NCBI GenBank assembly: GCA_964035545.1
Contig: OZ037766.1
Coordinates: forward strand, 32,371,773 to 32,435,772
Source: Bugula neritina
Taxonomy: Eukaryota > Bryozoa > Gymnolaemata > Cheilostomatida > Bugulidae
Direction: 5' to 3'
Length of the DNA stretch: 64,000 nt
The translations under genes were made by a program, and so were the position numbers. A model generated the notes under the pieces. The model made no database searches, was not told the DNA's origin, and saw only the letters and a list, made by a program, of their open reading frames with translations. Positions 834 to 30,800 of the stretch are shown one piece after another (position 1 is the first letter of the stretch; each line of letters opens with the position of its first letter).

Positions 834-3800
834 GTGGGTTTGTCTATACTCTATATCAACACTACAGTAGTGTTAGTCAATGTGATAGTAATAACTACAG
901 TGTTGTTAGTCAATGTCATAGTAATAACTACAGTAGTGTTGTTAGTCAATGTGATAGTACTAACTACAGTAGTGTTGTTATTCAATGTGATAGTAATAAC
1001 TACAGTAGTGTTAGTCAATGTGATAGTAATAACTACAGTGTTGTTAGTCAATGTGATAGTACTAACTACAGTAGTGTTGTTATTCAATGTGATAGTAATA
1101 ACTGCAGTAGTGTTCGTCAATGTGATAGTAATAACTACAGTAGTGTTAGTCAATGTGATAGTAATCACTACAGAAGTGTTGTTAGTAGTCAAGTACGGCA
1201 CATCTACCTCATGGCCTCATAAGTAACGCTGACTCACTCACTTCTCACTAACATGAGATAATATAATGCCATAGACTAGCAGCATAGTATATAGAACTAG
1301 TAGTATATAGTATCAGTATCATACTAAGCATATAAGTATATCATAGCATATATATTTCTCAGATAAATAGTATGCTAAATGTAGCTTGACATTCCTTTCA
1401 TTGAATGGTTACATTATTTTGGCTTTTAATTTCCTGATTTCCATAAATTTTATTGGTTTTATGGTGAGCCATTAATTTATTACTACCAACTCACTTTAGT
1501 GACACTCACCATCAGCTTAGTGATGAATTACTGCACCTATCAAACTGACCTCTTACTGGGTTACTGAAGGTGAAGGTCAAACTCATTGTGATGGTTATGG
1601 GCAGACTAATACCAAGATAGCCTCTTTGGTGTAGCTCAGTATGAGTCACGCGGTGGTGTCGGCTGCACCCATATTTCACGTCTTCTGCACTCACACAGTG
1701 TATATTCATAGCCCCCATGTACTGGTTCACTCCTTCTGCGTGCCATCAAGTACTTATCTTACTGTCACAGAATTATCACTCCCTCAGTTACTATTTCTAA
1801 GGAACTGAACTTCTAAAAGAAGGCATGGAGTGAGTCAATCGAGTGTATACCCGTATTATCCACCCACCATGCCCACCAATTCACTTGCCCACCATTTCAC
1901 TTGCCCACCATTTGACTTGTCCACCAATTCACATACTCACCATTTCTGCTAGAGTTTCAGCAACCACCCCTGCTTGACTGTAATTGTTCTGTATATTATA
2001 TTCATATGATGTGTGCAATAAAGTCGTATCTGATGCATCATATTTGCAGGTAAAATAAATCACTTGAAGCTTAAAACTCTTCACAGAGTAAGGAGTTTGA
2101 ATAAAGGGAATCATTTGATTTCAGTTTTCTTTCACTACATGTTGTAAAGTAAATATATTGCCAATCAAAGCCTTGACTTATCACAATCCAAATGTTTCTC
2201 TATGCACTAGCAGATAAGATGTAACATGGCCATTACTTCCTTCTTCTCCTTGGCATTTCCTTAGACACGAATTATTCCATGTTTTGGTTACAATTAAACA
2301 TAATGAGAACAAGTCACCATTTCCACAGGATCAGTGTATGACTGCTAATATAGCTTGCGTTTTTGTCATAAGGCTAACATGGTGGGGGCGGCCTCCACCC
2401 CCTTCCCACATGGTCACAAGTATGAGAAACTTGTAGCTCTACTCTGCTGGTTCCCTAAACGGTTTAGAACTTAGTCTACCATCTAGTGTTGCTTGTTATT
2501 TGATCTTTTCAACAGTTGCTTCAACAGTTGCTATCTAATAAGCTGTAATTACCCAACCTAAAAGTGGGAATAACCCAGTCAGGCATGCCTAACTATAACC
2601 TTCTCTTGTAGACCAAGCAGTCTCAGCAGAGGATAGTTTAGCAGAATCCCCTCCCCAGGACAGTGTTGGGGTGAACCTTCCAGCTGCCCAACTTTCTAAC
2701 TCACCCCAAGAAAACTCTGATGCACCTGAAACCCCAGTTTTACCAGAAGATCCCCCGTCGTACAATCAGCTGGAGGAAGAAGAACTGTATATGAACATAT
2801 TAGTGTCGAGTAAACTGGACTCTAATGCTACCCCTCCACCGGAAGTACCACAGAGGCCTGCTGTTACACAGTGCACTAAGTCACCTTCCCAACCCTCCAT
2901 TAGTTTGCCTTCAGTTTCATCTCAACTTCTCAGTGAATCAGCACACAGTCACACAGTATCCGGTACTGCGTTACCTGACAATGTCGTGTTACCTGACAAT
3001 GTCGTGTCACCTGACAATGTCGTGTTACCTGACAATGTCGTGTTACCTGACAATGCCCCTCCTGGACTAGTTGTAGATACCAGTGTTGCCCCTCCTACAA
3101 ACAGCAGTTCATCAGTTAAGGATATCAGTCTGGCAGCGGGTGATGCTGACCTAGCTAAAGTTCTCCCTGAAGACATATATGTTAATACACTCGACAACGA
3201 CCCTACTCCACCTGCTGTCTTCCCGCCCTCAGATGTTTCCTCTGCTTCGACTGCTGCCGTAACTCCCTCATCTACTTCTACTATACCTGCTGCTGCCGTA
3301 ACCCCCTCAGCTGCCTCTACTATTGCTGCTGCTACCCCCTCACTGGCCTCTAGTATATCTGCTGCCGCTCCACCAGCCTCTCTCTCATCACCAACAGCAG
3401 AGACAGACGCTGTGTATGGGAATATAACTCCTACAGACTCAACTCTCAATTCTCTTCACCAAAGTAAGATACTATATAGTATATATTACTGTATAATATG
3501 CTAAGAGTAAGATACTATATAGTATATATTACTATATAGTATGCTAAAAGTAAGATACTATATAGTATATATTACTATATAGTATGCTAAAAGTAAGATA
3601 CTATATAGTATATATTACTATATAATATGCTAAGAGTAAGATACTATATAATATATATTACTGTATAATATGCTAAGAGTAAGATACTATATAGTATATA
3701 TTACTATATAGTATGCTAAAAGTAAGATACTATATAGTATATATTACTATATAATATGCTAAGAGTAAGATACTATATAATATATATTACTGTATAATAT

Positions 3801-6800
3801 GCTAAGAGTAAGATACTATATAGTATATATTACTATATAGTATGCTAAAAGTAAGATACTATATAGTATATATTACTATATAATATGCTAAGAGTAAGAT
3901 ACTATATAGTATATATTACTATATAGTATGCTAAAAGTAAGATACTATATAGTATATATTACTATATAATATGCTAAGAGTAAGATACTATATAATATAT
4001 ATTACTGTATAATATGCTAAGAGTAAGATACTATATAGTATATATTACTATATAGTATGCTAAAAGTAAGATACTATATAGTATATATTACTATATAATA
4101 TGCTAAGAGTAAGATACTATATAATATATATTACTGTATAATATGCTAAGAGTAAGATACTATATAGTATATATTACTATATAGTATGCTAAAAGTAAGA
4201 TACTATATAGTATATATTACTATATAATATGCTAAGAGTAAGATACTATATAATATATATTACTGTATAATATGCTAAGAGTAAGATACTATATAGTATA
4301 TATTACTATATAGTATGCTAAAAGTAAGATACTATATAGTATATATTACTATATAATATGCTAAGAGTAAGATACTATATAATATATATTACTGTATAAT
4401 ATGCTAAGAGTAAGATACTATATAGTATATATTACTATATAGTATGCTAAAAGTAAGATACTATATAGTATATATTACTATATAATATGCTAAGAGTAAG
4501 ATACTATATAGTATATATTACTATATAATATGCTAAGAGTAAGATCCTATAAAGTATATATACTATACTATATATTATGTTGCTATTAGATGTTCCTCCA
4601 GTTAAAGAAGTGGTAGAAAGTTAATGGTAAAATATACCAGACATGAAACTAGCTCTGTGATTGGTGAATAGAAAGCTTTAGATGCATGAAAATAGACACA
4701 TTATTGTGGAGCATCCAGTGATTGTAGACCAGAAGGATATGATTTTAGTTTTAGAGTGTATATTGATAGTATATTAGGGCATGTGCTCTACACTGTTGTA
4801 CTTACTCTACACTGTTATACTGTAGCTGTAGTACTGTACTGTACACCGTTGTACTCTACACTGTTATACTTACTCTACACTGTTATACTGTAGCTGTAGT
4901 ACTGTACTGTACACCGTTGTACTCTACACTGTTATACTTACTCTACACTGTTATACTGTAGCTGTAGTACTGTACTGTACACCGTTGTACTCTACACTGT
5001 TATACTTACTCTACACTGTTATACTGTAGCTGTAGTACTGTACTGTACACCGTTGTACTGTATCATAGATATGAGAGGATTCCCTATACCGCCAGTGCCG
5101 AGTGACCCTGTGACACCCCTCACCCCCCTCTCTAGGGAGTCACTGACGCTGCTCGACCCTACAGAGTACATGTCGCTGTGGGAACTCCAGTCAGCCTCTG
5201 GAAGCATGTCTACTGCTAGCATTGGTGACGTTTCTAGTTAGCTATAACTACTGTGTGCTGTATGCCCCCCCCCCCTTGTGGGGTGTAGCACCAGGGTACC
5301 CTAAAGTACCCTGGTGCTAGGGTCCTATCTCTGTGAAGTACCCTAGCATCGGGTTTTTATTTCTATTGATCAGTGTTTATCATTTGCTTTTATAAGCTCA
5401 ACCTGTTGATTCATTGAAAGTTGAACTTGACAAAAACTCAAAGAAGCTGAGCTAATTAAACTATTTAATTAGCAGTTTTTGGTTGGTATGTTAGTGACTG
5501 ACCATGTGTTTTCATTAAAACAGGAAATGGTGTCAGTACTAGCGCCCCCTCTAACCTGCAGTCTGTATCAACTGACTCGCCAAACACTTCTACAAGTTCC
5601 AAGAGAGTTGGACCACCCATACCACCCCGTCTAGCCGAGACCACGCCCACTGTTGAGAAGATACCTCCCCCAAGGGTTGCAGAAGACAGACCATCTGCTA
5701 TTGAATTTACATTCCCAACTGGTGAGTCTGGTGAAGATCATAGCAGCTTTTACTTATAAGTGAATTTCATATTCGCATTCTAGATTATAATCGCCTGCAA
5801 TGATTTATTTGCAGTGTAATTTTTGGCTATGAAAATAATTTATATTTTGTTATCTCATTTCACGTGATATTTTCTCTGATGACAATGCCAAGAAAATTAA
5901 ATGTGAATATTGGAGCAATTACAAGCGTGAGTGAGTGAGTGGGTGAGTGAGTGAGTGAGTGAGTGAGTGAGTGAGTGAGTGAGCGAGTGAGCGAGTGAGT
6001 GAGTGAGCGAGCGAGTGAGTGAGTGAGCGAGTGAGTGTGTGAGTGAGCAAGCCAGTGAGTGAGAGTGAGTCAGAGTGAGTGAGTTAGTGAGTGATAGAGT
6101 GAGTGAGTCAGAGTGAGTGAGTCAGAATGAGTGAGTGAGTGAGTTAGTGAGTGAGTGAGTGAGTGAGTGTGTGAGCGAGTGAGTGAGTGAGCGAGTGAGT
6201 GAGCGAGTGAGTGAGTGAGTGAGTGAACGGGCATATTTCTGATCAGCACAGCAATTTGCTGCTACTGCCGCTGTCTGTCTGTCTGTCCATGCTACTTCCT
6301 GCCACAGATAAACAGATCAATCAATATTAGAGTGCAGTTTGTGAAACTTCTTATCTATTTCATAATGTAACAGCTTTGAAAACTTATCAGCCATATTAGC
6401 TCTATAACGTAATATTTTTGTTATGTAAAGCTGTAAGTGATAGACATGAATCAATAGTATATTTTAACAAAAACAATGTAGAAACAGTCTTATAAATATC
6501 ATGAATAGCTGAATTCAACTCTGTTTCATTCTTATTTTTCTTTCGTTGGTTTAAATAAAAAAGTTTCAATTTAAAAAAATGTCTTCAAAAACCTAGTCGG
6601 TCGTAGGAGTTATGTTTTCAGAAAATGCACTATAAAGTAATATAGTAGTAGTAACTGAAATGTGCAGGTATATATTGATATTCAGTTTCACTATTGTCAT
6701 ACTGTTGGGCCTATTGTCACACAATAACCACAACATAAAATAATTAGCTAGTCCGGAGTTTTATTTGAAAATTGTGAATTTGCCTTCCCTGGATAGTTGT

Positions 6801-15800: not shown

Positions 15801-18800
15801 GACTGTGTTTTTCTTCAGTAAACTTGTGTGTTATCTTATCTTAGTTTGGGGTTATCTTTCTAGACTACATGTTGATTCTGAACATGACTTAGAAAAATGG
15901 AAAATTTCATTAGAAGATAGTATTGCTGCAGCTCTATCAGATGATAATGTGAGTATATATAGTATTGCTGCAGCTCTATCAGATGATAATGTGAGTATAT
16001 ATAGTATTGCTGCAGCTCTATCAGATGATAATGTGAGTATATATAGTATTGCTGCAGCTCTATCAGATGATAATGTGAGTATATATAGTATTGCTGCAGC
16101 TCTATCAGATGATAATGTGAGTATATATAGTATTGCTGCAGCTCTATCAGATGATAATGTGAGTATATATAGTATTGCTGCAGCTCTATCAGATGATAAT
16201 GTGAGTATATCTAGTATTGCTGCAGCTCTATCAGATGATAATGTGAGTATATCTAGTATTGCTGCAGCTCTATCAGATGATAATGTGAGTATATCTAGTA
16301 TTGCTGCAGCTCTATCAGATGATAATGTGAGTATATATAGTATTGCTGCAGCTCTATCAGATGATAATGTGAGTATATATAGTATTGCTGCAGCTCTATC
16401 AGATGATAGTGTGAGTATATATAGTATTGCTGCAGCTCTACCCCTACTGTGTACATACTGCATACATTGCCGCTCATTCCTATGTACGCAGGTACTAAAT
16501 GAAGTGTATGAGAATGCATCCAACACTACCTGCGCAGACTGTTCCTGTAGCAAGCCACACTGGGCCGTCCTACACCTGACGTCGGTGGTGTGCAGTCATT
16601 GCGCCGGTGTGCACAGGCAATACTGGCCTTCCAAAGTCAAGTCTCTAAGAATGGATGTAAAAGTGTGGAACAAGCAGCTGGTAGACGTGAGTCATGTTTA
16701 GAAATATGATACGTGATACGATGTCACAATACCAACCGACCAATCAGCGATGCCGTAGTATATATAGTCACTGTACCTTCTCCATATTGTGTGTTGTAGC
16801 TGTATGTAGCCGTGGGTAATGGGACAATCAACTCGGTATGGGAGGCCAACTTGAGTTCTACAGATAAAATCAACTCTACAGCAACTTCGTAAGCTATATA
16901 TATATATATATATATGTGCGTGTGTGTGCGTGCGCGCGCGTGTGTGTATTTTTGCATTTTATATACTCATTGCTTATCTGTAGCTTACTTCTAAATTTCG
17001 AAGTTTATAAAATTAAACACTTGAGTTATGTAAAGTTCCCAAAAAAAGTTCAACCTAAATTAAATTTTCTTCTATCTACTTTAATCTAAAATCCCTCGCT
17101 GTCTCTAATCAAACGAAGCAGCAACAGCTTTTCATCACGTCAGCTCAAATATTTGCAGATCGCAGCGGCAGACGTACATTCTAAAGAAATATCTCAGGAA
17201 AGCATTCTTCCCTCTTTCTATCCGGAATCTTCCGGTAAAACCTTCTCTTGGACACCTTAATCAGGTGAGGCTAGTTTGGGACATAGTTTACTTTGCTGTG
17301 TAATATTTGGGATATAGTTTACTTCGCTGTGTAATATTTGGGACATAGTTTACTTCGCCGTGTAATATTAGGGATATAGTTTACTTCGCTGTGTAATATT
17401 TGGGATATAGTTTACTTCGCTGTGTAATATTTGGGACATAGTTTACTTCGCCGTGTAATATTAGGGATATAGTTTACTTCGCTGTGTAATATTTGGGATA
17501 TAGTTTACTTCGCTGTGTAATATTTGGGACATAGTTTACTTCGCCGTGTAATATTAGGGATATAGTTTACTTCGCTGTGTAATATTTGGGACATAGTTTA
17601 CTTTGGTGTGTGATATTTGGGACATAGTTTACTTTGGTGTGTGATATTTGGGACATAGTTTACTTCGCCGTGTAATATTAGGGATATAGTTTACTTCGCC
17701 GTGTAATATTTGGAATATAGTGCCATGATTTACAGTGGAGTGTGAAATTTAACTAGTGTTTATAATCTACCAGTGAAATTCTCTCCCTAATGTTACACTA
17801 GACTATGGAGTTGTCTGTCCCACATGTGTGTGAGAGTTGGGTAGTGTGCAGCAGGTACATTATACAGCGTAACCTGATGTGCTGCTTTACCTGTAGGAAC
17901 TCTCCAACTCCATCAAACAGGGACAGTTGCCAGATATTATCTTCCTAATAAACAGAGGTGCTAGTGTCCGCCAGCCCATTCCACCTTCACAACAAACTCG
18001 TAGGTTACTCAGGCTAACCACAGTATTTCTCAGTCTATTCTATTTGATAACATTGCCAGCTCTATCAACATTTACTTGTTTTAATTTACATCAAATTTAA
18101 TGTTTTTTAAAGATATATTGTTAGCTGCTATTTCAGTGTTTTTTGAAACAAGGTTATGTTATGAAAACCATACAATGTTTTTGCATGTTGTTTCTGCAAA
18201 AGCGACAACTCCTCATTCGTAATATGCTAACTGATGACTGTTGCAGCTCTACAACTCGCGGAGTCTTACAATCATTCTAATATTGCTCAATATTTAAAGC
18301 TCAACGGGGCGGAACATGAAAGTTATGATGATATCTGGGCTGTGATGGTAAGTGTCCTGTCGTTTCTCTCAATATTATATATATATATATGGCATAGTTT
18401 ATATATTTTATTTATAACATTCTATATGTATAATATGTTATATATAACATTCTATATGTATAATATGTTATATAACATTATATAATTAACTTTAAACGTT
18501 TTATTCATTTGTAAATATTTTATGTTGTAGAAGGTATTAAATTGTATATATTCAAGCTTTGAGTTTTCAATGTCGTCAAACTATTACAAAGAAATATGAG
18601 TGCCAATTCTTATGCTGCGTTTATCCAATCATGAATTGGAATATTCTGCTTTCCTTGTAAATTGTAGAGAGAACAACTCCCTGAGGATGAAGACAACAAC
18701 AATATTCTCAAGTCCGGGTATCTGTTTAAAGTTCAAAACAATAAAAAAGGTAGATGGTGTTTTCGGTAGTTAAAAAGGAATTATATTTGTTGTGTCTGTT

Positions 18801-21800: not shown

Positions 21801-24800
21801 CACCATGTATCTTTCTACCTGTATACCACCACTATGTACTGCTCCACTCATTTGCTACTATTCTATTACAGGAAGTGTCTCATAATCTGGAAGATCAGCA
21901 GCTGAACAAAGACAATGTACCTGTTCTGGTAGAGAAATGCGTGGAGTTTATTTCTTTACATGGTAAATGTTAACTTGTAAATCACTGTAGTATTTATAGT
22001 ACTGACACTAACACACTATTCTACTGCTACATTATGTTCTTTTCATTTAAATGATGCAAATATGTTTCCAGAATTGTTGTTAATATAAAATTTTAATTTG
22101 CGAACCACTCATATCGGCGCTATAATAACTTATAATTTAATTCATATTACTTCGTTGTGTAATTTAGTATATTATTTTAAAAATGTAACAACCATGTGTT
22201 AATACACATTTATGTTGTGACCCAGTTGCAGGTATGAATAGTTGTGACACTCTATTGCAGGTGTCACTAGTTATGACACTCTGTTGCAGGTATCACTAGT
22301 TATGACACTGTATAACAGGTGTGACTAGTTATGACACTTTATAACAGGTGTCACTAGTTATGACACTCTGTTGCAGGTGTCACTAGTTATGACACTATAT
22401 AACAGGTGTGACTAGTTATGACACTGTATAACAGGTATGACTAGTTATGACACTCTGTTGCAGGTATGACTAGTCATGACACTCTGTTGCAGGTATGACT
22501 AGTTATGACACTCTATTGCAGGTATGACATCTGAAGGGATATACAGGCTCAGTGGCACTCATTCTAAAGTGACAGGACTCCTCAATGATTTTATCAATGG
22601 TAAATATTTCCAAAGTTATCCTCATCTGTTGTACTCATCTGTTATACTCATCTGTTATACTCATCTGTTGTACTCATCTGTTATACTCATCTGTTATACT
22701 CATCTGTTATACTCATCTGTTATATTCATCTGTTATACTCATCTGTTATACTCATCTGTTATATTCATCTGTTATATTCATCTGTTATACTCATCTGTTA
22801 TACTCATCTGTTATACTCATCTGTTATACTCATCTGTTATACTTATCTGTTATACTCATCTGTTATTTGCTGTGTCATGTCCTTGTCATATCCTTGCAGG
22901 TGCTCGCTCAGTGCACATAAAGCAGGAAGACTACACTGTGCACGATGTAGCCAATGTTCTTAAGCGATATCTCAGGAATCTGAAGGAGCCCGTCATGAGC
23001 TCCCTTCTCTATGGCCAGTGGTTAAGTGCTGCAAGTATGTATCTATTTCTGTACTTCATCTCTGCATGTTTCTGCCTTTCCTTGCATTGTGTCCTCTCTC
23101 TCTCTCTCTCACTCTGTTCACACTTCTCTTATGCATGGTGTTGTCACATGATGTTGTCACATGATGTCATCACATGATGTCGTCACATGATGTCGTCACA
23201 TGATGTCGTCACATAATGTTGTCACATGATGTCGTCACATAATGTTGTCACATGATCTATACATACTTTGTCTTATATAATTTATGAAACTCTTGACTCA
23301 TTCTGTGATAGAATACAATATATAGTTATGATATACAGTGGCAGGTATTACTGTACATTGTACCGTGTACTAGAGTTGATAGCAACACATACTAGCTGTG
23401 AAGGTTCGTCCACGTTAAGACGTTGCAATAAGCAGTTGTTGCAGGTCATCACTGCTGTCGTCTTTAACCAGATTCATAAATATTTTGATAAAATCGGCAA
23501 TTTTCAAAATCCATGTACTCCAATTGGCTGGTCAGAATCTATACTCCAATACACCATTTTCTCTGCACGCACTGTGAATATGATTTAACTAGTTTTGTGC
23601 AAAACGACAGCCGTGTTTTGCCTTGGAAATGTCCCAACGTGGACAGACTTTAATACTAGTACATGTGCACTATAGAGGTGAATTCCCAGTGGATGGTTAC
23701 TGTAACTAGAATACTATTAACTATGGAAACACATCAGTTAGACGGCAAAAATATAATCTTTTCACATCTCTTGTAAGTCCTAAATCGATAATCATAGCAT
23801 ATTTTATGTATATGACACATGCCCACCCTTGTTCTGCTCTGTTAGTAATATTCTAGTGTTTGCTATTTGTATTGATGTCTATTTTATTAGTGCTGACTCC
23901 GTCCAACACGACAGCTCCCATTGGTAAGTGCTGCCCCAACTCACCCGCCTTTTCTTCCGAGTTTTCGTCTCTTATATTACTGACCGCCTCTTGTGTTCTT
24001 TCCTGCACACTAGTTATGGCTTGCAGTAGATGTTCTGTACTGTCTTACCTTCTTCTTGCACCGTGAAAGATCTCTTGAACCTTCTATTAACTCCAACCCA
24101 GATCTTTCTTCAAACATTATGAGACGTGATTCAACCGGAAATTATTCACCTACTAATAATTTATATGTAGAATTATAGCAATGGCTTGTGATTAACACTC
24201 ACTGCGTATAGATAGCTTACTTTGGCTATTAATAGTACACTATTTCTATTAATAGTACACTTCTGACTAAAAATAGCACACTTGGTATATAATTTCAATT
24301 GCAACACTAAATATGTATAGGTGTAACTATAAAGAGTATGGTGCTTATAATATTTGTTTTGAAGTACAAACCGATCACGATAGAAAGTTGAACCGATACA
24401 AAGAGCTGCTAGAAAGTCTTCCTGACGTTAACTTTGCAACTCTGAAAATGATCATCGGACACCTGCTCAGGTATATCACTGTCACATCTGCTCAGGGTTG
24501 TGTGTTTCACTGTAGAGTTGTGTGTTTCACTGTAGAGTTGTGTGTTTCACTGTAGAGTTGTGTGTTTCACTGTAGAGTTGTGTGTTTCACTGTAGAGTTG
24601 TGTGTTTCACTGTAGAGTTGTGTGTTTCACTGTAGAGTTGTGTGTTTCACTGTAGAGTTGTGTGTTTCACTGTAGAGTTGTGTGTTTCACTGTAGAGTTG
24701 TGTGTTTCACTGTAGAGTTGTGTGTTTCACTGTAGAGTGGCGGCCAATCATGGTCAGAATAAGATGTCGCAGCTTAACCTGGCTACCTTGTTTGGGCCTG

Positions 24801-27800
24801 TGTTGTTGTCGGGCAGCTCCACGGAGAACCCAACTCAGAACTCATTTGTGAACACCAACTACGAGATACAGCTGGCTGATGACATCATGACTTACTACCA
24901 GTGGCTCTTCTCTGTAAGTGTAGGGGTTGTGTAAGTGGTGGGAGGGGGGTTGTGTTCGTCGTGGGAGGGGTCCTGTAAGGGGTGGGAGGGGTTATGTTAG
25001 TAGTGGGAGGGTTGTATAAGTAGTGGGAGGGGTTATGTAAGTGGTGGGAGGGGTTCTGTTAGTAGTGGGAGGGGTTCTGTTAGTAGTGGGAGGGGTTCTG
25101 TTAGTAGTGGGAGGGGTTCTGTTAGTAGTGGGAGGGGTTCTGTTAGTAGTGGGAGGGGTTCTGTTAGTAGTGGGAGGGGTTCTGTTAGTAGTGGGAGGGG
25201 TTCTGTTAGTAGTGGGAGGGGTTCTGTTAGTAGTGGGAGGGGTTCTGTTAGTAGTGGAAGGGGTTCTGTTAGTAGTGGAAGGGGTTCTGTTAGTAGTGGT
25301 GGCAGGGGTTCTGTAAGGGGGCGGTTCCGGTCATGAACTCTTTCAAGAAATCTGCTAGCTGAGTTCATCACTGTCTTATTTTCCTTGGCCTTAGTTTTAG
25401 TAACTCAATTTTTCCATTTAGATGTTGGTTAATTTTTGCTTCAAGTTCTCTAATAGTCGGCTAGCGAATGTTGATAAAGAAATTATTATTATAGAGATCA
25501 TTGGCTAATGAGTCATTTTACTTCCTTAACCTCTGCTGTTAGTCACATGACCTCTGGTAGTAGTCACATGACCTCTGGTAGTAGTCACACGGTCTGTGGT
25601 TTTGTGTGTACTGAAATACCCAGCGAAGAGTTACAGATGCCGAGGTGTTGGTCATGTGATCATGTCTTGTAGATTGAAGAAGAGGAACTGGAAAAAGAAA
25701 ACAAAATCCAGGCTAAAATAGAAGAGATCAAAAGCCTGGCACCCCAGACAGCTGCACCGTGTGAAGAGTTCATATTAGGGATATACGTGTTCAACAATAT
25801 GGGGGAGCCTATCAATGCAAAGGTCTGTTTTATTTTCACTAGTTTGTGTGAAGGTGGTATAAATCTAAAAATAGACAGACAAATATAATTATAGTATTGC
25901 GTATCAGGTTTCTTGTATCTTTTCATGGTAATATTTAGGCTATTTAGTAATGTAACTTCAGAGGTCTATGAGATAATTTTGTCTTTCTAAAGGTCTCGGC
26001 GCAGAAGACGGCCTCTGAGATTGTTGCAGACGTGGCGAGTGCCCAGCGAATCCCTCGAGCCGATGGATATTCTCTGTTTGAAATTGTCTGCTCAGGGGAA
26101 TTGGAGCGTCCCCTGAGTGAGAGAGAAAAGGTGCTTACTATACGTTCTCTGAGTTTCATATATTGTTTATACATGCGTGTGTGTTACTATAGTTGTGTGA
26201 AGTAGATATCGCAGAATAATATAGTAACTATCGTCACTATAATACTCTAGTAGATGTCTTATAAAATCATATAAGCAATTAGGTTTTCTTTTTAAATCAT
26301 TTCCAGATTTTGTGCTGTAATAGTCTTTGAGCACACTAATTTTTGTGGCGGCAGCAGTTACTACGGTTACGTCAGTTACTATGGTTACAGCAGTTACTTT
26401 CTGTTGCATATAGGTTTTGTCAACTACGCTAGCTCAAACAAGCTGGAGTGTGGAACATACGAAGGGAAATTATCTTTGTGTAAAAGAAGACGCACTCAGA
26501 CACTGTATAGAGCATACGGTAACGTAGTACAATATACGGCATAGTGCAGCGTAGTACAATATACGATATAGTGTTACGTAGTACAATATAAGGATTATTG
26601 CACAAATAATTTGGTCAGGTATTACATTGTAATGTATATCACAATATATTATATTACATATATCACAATATATTATATTACATATATCACAATATATTAT
26701 ATTACATGTATCACAATATATTATATTACATATATCACAATATATTATATTACATATATCACAATATATATTACATATATCACAATATATTATATTACAT
26801 ATATCACAATATATTATATTACATATATCACAATATATTATATTACATGTATCACAATATATTATATTACATATATCACAATATATTATATTACATATAT
26901 CACAATATATATTACATATATCACAATATATTATATTACATATATCACAATATATTATATTACATGTATCACAATATATTATATTACATATATCACAATA
27001 TATTATATTACATATATCACAATGTATATTACATATATCACAATATATTATATTACATATATCACAATGTATTATATTACATATATCACAATATATTATA
27101 TTACATATATCACAATATATATTACAGTCAGGTCCAGATATATCTCGGTTCACTGAGCTACAATTTAGTGACAAAAGAAGTTGGAAGAAAATGTACTTTG
27201 AGTTAAGCTCGTCACAACTCATATGTTATAAAGACAGAAACAATAACAAGGTCTACGAGTGGAACATCACCGATATCTCCATATACATTGGTGTGGAGAA
27301 GAAGCGCAAACCTCCCACTCTGTACGTCCAACACCATTTCCTGTTGTACTGTCTTTAAAACCATTCAGACTGTTTGACATATTTCCGTGTAGTAAGTTAT
27401 ATGTTCCAGTGTTCCAACACATGTCTTCTATATTCTAGTTATGGCATCACATTCCTGTCGTCTACTGATGATAAGTCAAAGTACAAGGATTCCCCGTTCT
27501 TTGGAAAGAGCATCTGCTTTGCAACAGACGAGGATATGTTTACATGGCTCTCCTCTATTTACTACACCCAGGTTTGCTCTCTCTCTCTCCTCTATTTACT
27601 ACACCCAGGTTTGCTCTCTCTCTCTCCTCTATTTACTACACCCAGGTTTGCTCTCTCTCTCTCCTCTATTTACTACACCCAGGTTTGCTCTCTCTCTCTC
27701 CTCTATTTACTACACCCAGGTTTGCTCTCTCTCCTCTATTTGCTACACCCAGGTTTGCTCTCTCTCCTCTATTTGCTACACCCAGGTTTGCTCTCTCTCC

Positions 27801-30800
27801 TCTATTTACTACACCCAGGTTTGCTCTCTCTCTCTCCTCTATTTACTACACCCAGGTTTGCTCTCTCTCCTCTATTTACTACACCCAGGTTTGCTCTCTC
27901 TCCTCTATTTACTACACCCAGGTTTGCTCTCTCTCTCTCCTCTATTTACTACACCCAGGTTTGCTCTCTCTCTCTCCTCTATTTACTACACCCAGGTTTG
28001 CTCTCTCTCCTCTATTTGCTACACCCAGGTTTGCTCTCTCTCCTCTATTTACTACACCCAGGTTTGCTCTCTCTCTCTCCTCTATTTACTACACCCAGGT
28101 TTGCTCTCTCTCCTCTATTTACTACACCCAGGTTTGCTCTCTCTCCTCTATTTGCTACACCCAGGTTTGCTCTCTCTCTCCTCCTTTACTCGAGATTCAA
28201 CACTCTCTATTTATTCTAGTCTAATATCTACTTGTCTAATATTATCTACTTGTCTAATATTATCTACTTGTCTAATATTATCTACTTGTCTAATATTATC
28301 TACTTGTCTAATAATATCTACATGTCTAATATTATCTACTTGTCTAATATCTACTTGTCTAATAATATCTACTTGTCTAATATCTACTTGTCTAATATTA
28401 TCTACTTGTCTAATACCTACTTGTCTAATATCTACTTGTCTAATATCTACTTGTCTAATATTATCTACTTGTCTAATAATATCTACATGTCTAATATTAT
28501 CTACTTGTCTAATATTATCTACTTGTCTAATAATATCTACATGTCTAATATTATCTACTTGTCTAATATCTACTTGTCTAATAATATCTACTTGTCTAAT
28601 ATCTACTTGTCTAATATTATCTACTTGTCTAATATCTACTTGTCTAATATTATCTACATGTCTAATATTATCTACTTGTCTAATATCTACTTGTCTAATA
28701 TTATCTACTTGTCTAATACCTACTTGTCTAATAATATCTACTTGTCTAATATCTACTTGTCTAATATTATCTACTTGTCTAATATCTACTTGTCTAATAT
28801 CTACTTGTCTAATATTATCTACTTGTCTAATAATATCTACATGTCTAATAATATCTACTTGTCTAATATTATCTACTTGTCTAATATTATCTACTTGTCT
28901 AATATTATCTACTTGTCTATTGAACTGTTGATTCTATTCTCACATCACGTTTCTCTAGTAAAACTAAACCTACTTTGCTGATTGTTTAGGAATGTTTCAT
29001 GGCTGGGAATTTGGTAATTATGAGACTTCAACTATTTGCTAATTATAAGCTTGTTTCAGTTGCACTTATTCACTGATTTAGTATTTGATTGTTTTATTCA
29101 GCTTTCTGTCAACAAATTGAGTATTTTCTCTTTACTTAATCATCTAATAAGACACTTGACAGTTCTAACACATGGCAGGTTGATGAGTGAAAGTAATTTC
29201 TCTTCTTCCATCGTTTGATCAACTACCTTGTCACTCCACTACTCAGTCACTTACTTAACTACCTAATTACTCCTAACTACTTTTATCACTCTTAACTACT
29301 CACTCTCCTTCAGCTTATCACTTACACAAGTTTATTCACTTTTTACTGAGTAAAATAAACTCATCCGCACTAAACAATGCGCTCTTGTGTAAAGATCGCT
29401 CTGTCTACTCACACCTGTACAGTATATAGTATATAGTACAGTATACTGTATACAGTATATAGTATATAGTATACAGTATATAGTATATAGTGTAGTTATA
29501 ATACAGTATATAGTATAGTTATAGTACAGTATATAGTATAGTTATAGTACAGTATATAGTATAGTTATAGTATACAGTATATAGTATATAGTATAGTATA
29601 CAGTGCATAGTACAGTCTATAGTACAGTATATAGTATACAGTATATAATACAGTATATAGTACAGTATATAGTATACAGTATATAGTATACAGTATATAG
29701 TACAGTATACAGTATATAGTACAGTATATAGTATATATATAGTACAGTTATAGTATAGTTATAGTATAGTTATAGTATAGTTATAGTATAGTCTTGTAAC
29801 TAATTACAGAGTCACGACAGAACACCCCCACAGACGTTACTTCCTTCCTCACAGATCGCCATGTCTTCCAGCGCATCCGAACGGGTAAGTTCTTATTCCT
29901 CCACTTTTGGTTTCTGTTTTCAAATGAGTTCTACAGAAATATCTCAGTTTCTTCCAGTTAAAACTTTTTATTAAGGGCACATCGAGAATGGCGAAGCTTG
30001 TTAAGTTTGTTCGCCCTCGTTCAGGGGCGTATAAACTCTGTAAGTGTTTGAGTAGTGTACAGTGCACCCTAATGTACTTTAGATGCATTTACATCTGTGT
30101 AGCTTTAGAGTTAGTGCACAACACCCTGTGTGGTCTTGGAGTGGTATTAGTGTAAACACTACCTACATGTGTGGTGTTAGTGTAAACACTACCTACATGT
30201 GTGGTATTAGTGTGAACACTACCTACATGTGTGGTCTTGTAGTAAGTGCACTGTAGTATTATATACTGTAGGGTCCCATAGCACTGTTCAAGGTAAACCC
30301 TTCAACTCTATGTTTGTTCCTCAGCAACTTTTTATTAATTTATTTCTGTTCGTTTTTTACTTCTTCAGTCTCTCCTGAATTCCTTATTGCTTCCCCTTGC
30401 ATTTTCATCTCGCAAATTGTGTATACATTTATACCTAATCATATTCTACTGTTTATTGCATGGGTGAATGGGGCCTACTTGATGTTTTATGCATGACTGT
30501 AAATTGTGAAACATAATTTGTTTAAACTTTGCTATGAAAAATCCGCTCAGTTTTAATCTGAATTCCAATTTAACATTTTGTGAAGGCGAGCACTTAACTG
30601 GAATGAGATAACTCCCATTTAAGTTGAGGCACCTCTGTGTTATAGTTTCACTTAGTAATAAACGAGTGTAGACACTCCACGTCGATGTTTATAATGTTTT
30701 ATAAAGTTATATTTGTGAGTGAATATTTACTGCAATCTATTAGTGTGATTTTTTATTTACTCAGAATTACTGGAGATAAAGTACAGTAGTTTGATGGATT

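Follow-up and report, generated by a model that had tools for sequence, protein, structure and literature searches.

An ARAP-like gene in the 64,000-nucleotide stretch of Bugula neritina DNA analysed here (the window) carries a 42-bp minisatellite that crosses an exon–intron junction, thereby repeating the end of the PH2 exon and its splice donor twelve times before the ArfGAP exon. With a probability of roughly two in three, we consider this array to be a boundary-spanning minisatellite of the amphioxus 'mirage' type, which is probably neutral, spliced past and without a linker function. A tandem duplication across the junction, followed by amplification in a region rich in minisatellites close to the end of a contig, would have generated the array. 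It could be tolerated because the exon-side copy of a duplication that spans a donor still provides a complete exon and donor. This exon-side copy (donor 1) is probably used by most transcripts, thereby yielding the conserved PH2–ArfGAP junction, and the other copies would be removed within the 543-nt intron. The inner donors may be used occasionally; that the frame would then be preserved is owed only to chance.

Anatomy of the array and its gene

Exons were built from the reading frame and splice signals, and a homologue was used for the last ones. The gene model comprises 28 exons and 1110 residues, contains no stop and is incomplete at both ends; Pfam detected PH, ArfGap and RhoGAP stretches on the + strand. 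In a protein search with a 966-residue query, the best of 21 matches was an ARAP1-like protein (55% identity, 100% query coverage), whose organism was read from the partial name '[Wat' as Watersipora, described in the available part of PMC13326412 as a bryozoan with an annotated assembly. A sponge origin, considered at first, was rejected after this search. Judged by sequence, the gene is ARAP-like: a single protein combines PH domains, ArfGAP and RhoGAP and has a full-length homologue. One copy of the locus was found in the one assembly, and no protein assignable to the species' own ARAP was found in two protein searches.

The array was reported by TRF with a period of 42, 12.5 copies, 99% matches and 0% indels, and the unit-by-unit listing resolved it from 15919 into twelve complete units followed by 18 nt of a thirteenth. 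Each unit consists of 30 exonic nt (SIAAALSDDN) and 12 intronic nt (gtgagtatatat), and the array starts in the last 30 nt of the 85-nt exon. The donor AAT/GTGAGTATAT (a slash marks the junction) thus recurs twelve times at 15949+42k, with a spacing of exactly 42. The original prediction had described the last ten codons plus gtgagtatat, repeated 12 times at 42 bases; this description was accurate apart from the two final bases of the unit, which it omitted. Copies 1–6, 10 and 11 are identical to one another, copies 7–9 have a common Y to S change of the last codon, and copy 12 has a single N to S change directly before the junction. Scored with a matrix built from 28 donors of the ARAP-like gene, the donors of copies 1–11 reached 9.2 bits and that of copy 12 (AGT/GTGAGT) reached 7.9. 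The spliced model is open and in frame for all twelve donors and for full retention, and the intron length is divisible by three, thereby confirming the earlier claim of a stop-free 543-base intron whose retention joins PH2 to ArfGAP in frame.

Table 1. Features of the 42-bp array and of sister arrays in the same gene (positions in the window)
Feature	Position	Strand	Basis
42-bp minisatellite crossing the exon–intron junction	15917..16440	+	TRF; unit-by-unit listing
Twelve donors GTGAGTATAT	15949..16420	+	Sequence listing; matrix scoring
Donor starts	15949, 15991, 16033, 16075, 16117, 16159, 16201, 16243, 16285, 16327, 16369, 16411	+	
Exon coding the PH2 end (..LHVDSEHDLEKWKISLEDSIAAALSDDN), with the exonic part of the unit as its last 30 nt	15864..15948	+	Open frame, CTAG/A acceptor, AAT/GTGAGT donor, homologue alignment
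Intron, 543 nt with donor 1, 81 nt with donor 12 (minus 11 x 42)	15949..16491	+	
Next exon, ArfGAP domain start (VLNEVYENASNTTCADC..)	16492..16686	+	Pfam ArfGap 2.7e-15; alignment; acceptor placed by reading frame, splice signals and homologue alignment
Acceptor array, 29 bp, 11 acceptors AG/GT, last joins RhoGAP exon at 22522	22226..22529	+	TRF
20-bp array with 12 acceptors TGTAG, the final one joining the RhoGAP exon at 24736	24497..24738	+	TRF
21-bp array beginning 8 nt past a donor, early copies with GTAAGT variants	24922..25314	+	TRF
Donor array, PH-domain exon end plus CAG/GTTTGC, 18 donors, spacing 33 or 37	27548..28185	+	TRF

The donor 1 product ALSDDNVLNEVY (ALSDDN/VLNEVY) corresponds, in the alignment with four homologues, to the homologue-type junction without an insertion. 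The junction reads SLSDDKVLTQVY, ALSDDTVLEQVY, GLGDKTVLNKIR and SLSCDGVCESIW in P0001, P0002, P0003 and P0006, respectively, and no linker or insertion was present at this position in these four aligned homologues (of 21 found). P0022, a match from another source, resembles the ArfGAP exon by eye from (Q)VLNEVY onward and not before, which suggests that another species has its intron at this position. The junction lies at residue 91, and the matches to solved structures begin at residue 88 or beyond, so that PH2 is not covered.

Arrays elsewhere in the gene

TRF detected 18 arrays with units of at least 7 bp in 16 of the 27 modelled introns, and these occupy 37% of the intronic and 2% of the exonic sequence in the gene model. 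The hypothesis of a donor bias was formed on ARAP, and the following figures are a description of this gene and not an independent test: 13 of the 18 arrays cross a donor or start no more than 30 nt from it, where uniform placement predicts 4.8, and none of 100,000 shuffles was as extreme. The count was 12/14 against 4.9 expected when the last 33 nt were barred to arrays, and 8/10 against 1.3 (p 1e-5) for those arrays with room to lie elsewhere. At the other intron end, 4/18 arrays end within 30 nt of an acceptor or cross it, which is not above the 4.8 expected. Judged by TRF limits, 3 of the 18 arrays cross a boundary, as does a further array beyond the last modelled exon.

The consequences that freely used inner sites would have for the protein can be read from the sister arrays. 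In the donor array at 27548–28185, two of the 17 extra donors remain in frame and 15 shift the frame; among the effects tested, the harm of its inner donors is confined to frame shifts, with no stops of their own. All non-final acceptors lead to a stop in both acceptor arrays (11/11 at 24497–24738 and 10/10 at 22226–22529; 21/21 together), and these arrays therefore need the exon-side outermost site. The protein would be prevented if their inner sites were freely used, so an exon-side outermost rule keeps it intact. Extended from the acceptor arrays to the 42-bp array, the same rule would choose donor 1. One gene with 12- and 18-donor arrays and 12- and 11-acceptor arrays, whose copies are alike, in which the protein needs the exon-side outermost acceptor, is thus a natural setting in which ordinary RNA sequencing could tell exon definition from proximity rules. 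The twelve acceptor copies at 24497–24738 are 100% identical (TRF), suggesting an array that is probably of very recent origin or has been homogenised. By eye, the unit of the array at 24922–25314 looks donor-derived.

Reading frame and choice of donor

The 42-bp array itself is far beyond chance, and its frame-keeping is within chance. A unit length is divisible by three with a chance of 1/3. At the stop-triplet rate measured in the introns of the gene (0.063), the four new codons of the 42-bp unit would be open with a probability of ~0.77 and the tail of ~23 codons with a probability of ~0.23. Among 14 junction-spanning arrays collected by eye, with units of 42, 33/37, 29, 20, 43, 21, 35, 23, 20, 26, 27, 20, 16 and 51, four units are divisible by three and one more is mixed, against ~4.7 by chance. 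The collection comprised four arrays of ARAP (15917, 27548, 22226 and 24497), four in the rest of the window (3463, 8382, 51120 and 60805) and six outside it (L011:3623, L021:994, L028:2085, L036:2039, L036:2653 and L038:3207). For the non-ARAP arrays, the exons were placed solely by open frames and splice signals, and in some cases the array reaches just 1–3 bases across the junction. L002 and L004:4740, which are similar and less clear, and the array at 24922 (unit 21, without exon) were left out. Keeping the frame is thus no general feature of such arrays, as its frequency is close to chance, and the open frame of the 42-bp array is best read as luck, the expected lucky share.

Two features are nevertheless counterpoints to the mirage reading: all twelve donors are alike, and the frame is open at every choice and upon retention, as for a tolerated or used linker. 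The original prediction proposed that these donors make a length-variable linker; several or all of them would be used, in a leaky or regulated manner, producing a ladder of ARAP isoforms with 0–11 extra SIAAALSDDNVSIY between PH2 and ArfGAP. The anatomy, the frame and the absence of stops on which this proposal was built hold for twelve near-equal donors, every one in frame, but no positive evidence was found for the donor choice that would make the linker. The four aligned homologues without an insertion, the damaging inner sites of the sister arrays, which are incompatible with free use, and the chance-level share of units with a length divisible by three all argue against it, and we regard the ladder as unlikely. 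Equally doubtful is its full form, in which all twelve donors are spliced appreciably and the PH2–ArfGAP spacing changes in steps of 14 residues over a range set by the copy number of the allele. If true, the ladder would be an evolvable, minisatellite-driven linker produced by splicing. The peptide DDNVSIYSIAAAL would mark the use of inner donors, against DDNVLNEVY for donor 1.

The choice of donor is the main doubt about the mirage reading, given that the intron-proximal site is reportedly favoured among equal donors. In the available part of PMC5585400, SRSF1 is described as activating intron-proximal donors. If donor 12 (or 11) were the main site, the array would be mostly coding, the exon would gain up to 462 nt (154 residues) and an 81-nt intron would remain, and the reading frame would stay open. 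However, copy 12 is the weakest donor (7.9 vs 9.2 bits), 81 nt is shorter than all the other 26 model introns (shortest 113), and intron-proximal choice in the acceptor arrays leads to stops. Both types of substitution in the array alter the amino acid, which, in these tiny numbers, gives no sign of purifying selection. Main use of an intron-proximal donor is thus improbable. The many identical donors, and arrays near donors in other introns, would also fit RNA decoys or recursive splicing that regulate the gene; the sister arrays vary in sequence, in the type of site and in the length of the unit, and such a role is very improbable. Near-identical tandem copies are hard to assemble, and the copy number of the 42-bp array may be inexact. 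An assembly artefact with a wrong copy number or a wrong array is still the least probable of these explanations, as the 33.6 Mb contig contains many arrays of differing units and the variant copies 7–9 and 12 lie in ordered places.

Known systems and genomic context

In the available passages of PMC3087553, amphioxus mirages are tandem repeats across exon–intron boundaries at either intron end, RT-PCR suggests that regular splicing is undisturbed, and copy number varies between haplotypes. The genes involved are Adh3, the globins BflGb6 and BflGb9, PGBD5 and troponin C (PMC3087553, PMC3902484); the part of PMC3902484 that was available likens PGBD5 to the same boundary repeats in Adh and troponin C. 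By anatomy, the 42-bp array belongs to the mirages, with the junction inside the unit and near-identical copies; that its splicing would be undisturbed is suggested indirectly by the homologues and the sister arrays. The likeness to the mirages as described in these passages lies in junction-containing tandem units at donors or acceptors, with AG/GT in many copies. The differences are another phylum, 18 arrays in the 27 introns of one gene and a fully in-frame case. Intron gain by tandem duplication of AG/GT segments, which the available part of PMC3087553 discusses for mirages, likewise supplies new splice sites by tandem duplication; here, however, an existing boundary is amplified inside an intron, with no sign of a newly formed one, and P0022 shares the exon start (by eye). 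Coding minisatellites (exonic VNTRs) have in common with the array an in-frame, stop-free unit of 14 codons, but the array would be three quarters exonic only if inner donors were used. Arrays denser near contig ends resemble the human subtelomeric VNTR clusters (PMC7608644), although here the contig ends are only presumed to be chromosome ends.

No report of boundary minisatellites in bryozoans was found among the literature matches listed, and the terms 'tandem repeat', 'satellite' and 'intron' do not occur in the main text of PMC13326412. The phylum, the density in one gene, the donor bias (13/18 arrays within 30 nt) and the array-rich contig ends are apparently new. The case would extend the range of boundary minisatellites beyond amphioxus to a further phylum and link them to array-rich contig ends.

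The genome assembly comprises 215.8 Mb in 295 contigs, and the window lies 1.1–1.2 Mb from the end of a 33.6 Mb contig (C2). Twenty spaced 10-kb samples were taken (two all-N samples were dropped and one was half N) together with seven near contig ends, and 25 were counted. In eight samples within 1.3 Mb of a contig end, whose near-end sites were picked after the array richness of the window had been seen, 70–150 arrays per 100 kb were found, against 0–77 in the 17 samples farther in (rank test p 5e-5). The near-end samples include L003, at 1.0 Mb from a contig end; the difference persisted when the two flanks of the window were left out (6 vs 17 samples, p 2e-4). Minisatellites were several-fold denser at contig ends (L033–L039 vs L003–L022).

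Splice-site anchoring of arrays outside ARAP is uncertain, with weak or null signals. In a motif test of array edges, none of the four sets showed a signal; for ARAP itself, 5 inward and 4 outward cases compared with 2.1 expected. An exon-plus-site predictor trained on ARAP was applied to five sets and two site types, with uncorrected p values; it is weak, placing one ARAP array at an acceptor against four in the model. For ARAP, the training set, donors were found for 10/23 arrays vs 2.5 expected and acceptors for 1 vs 2.4. No enrichment was obtained in 18 interior samples (donors 3/35 vs 2.7, acceptors 2 vs 1.6) or in the rest of the window (donors 1/30 vs 1.4, acceptors 3 vs 1.1). Ten RhoGAP loci gave donors for 3/11 arrays vs 0.7 (p 0.012) and acceptors for 0 vs 0.5, and seven end samples gave acceptors for 7/39 vs 3.1 (p 0.022) and donors for 6/39 vs 4.1 (p 0.24). 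A genome-wide anchoring of arrays at donors was considered and rejected as too strong: anchoring is strong with the ARAP exons, but the motif test was null and the signals of the predictor were weak or null outside ARAP. Clear single cases were seen by eye, with twelve donors after ..DVSFSTISS (L036:2039) and twenty after ..VYLASS (L011:3623).

Several minor observations were made on other repeats. A 16-bp array at L036:2653–2877 begins ~15 nt past a donor-like site and extends over an acceptor-like site at its far end, which makes the apparent intron almost wholly array. In the window, a (GTGA)n array at 5927–6226 (~74 copies) forms a run of donor-like GTGAGT words. On contigs C9 and C3, numerous weak RhoGAP matches fall on one stretch of the profile (~3–61), suggesting a repeated family or element. 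An 18-bp array of 4.8 copies at 2970–3055 of the window is open in the frame PDNVVL and may be a coding minisatellite of an upstream gene.
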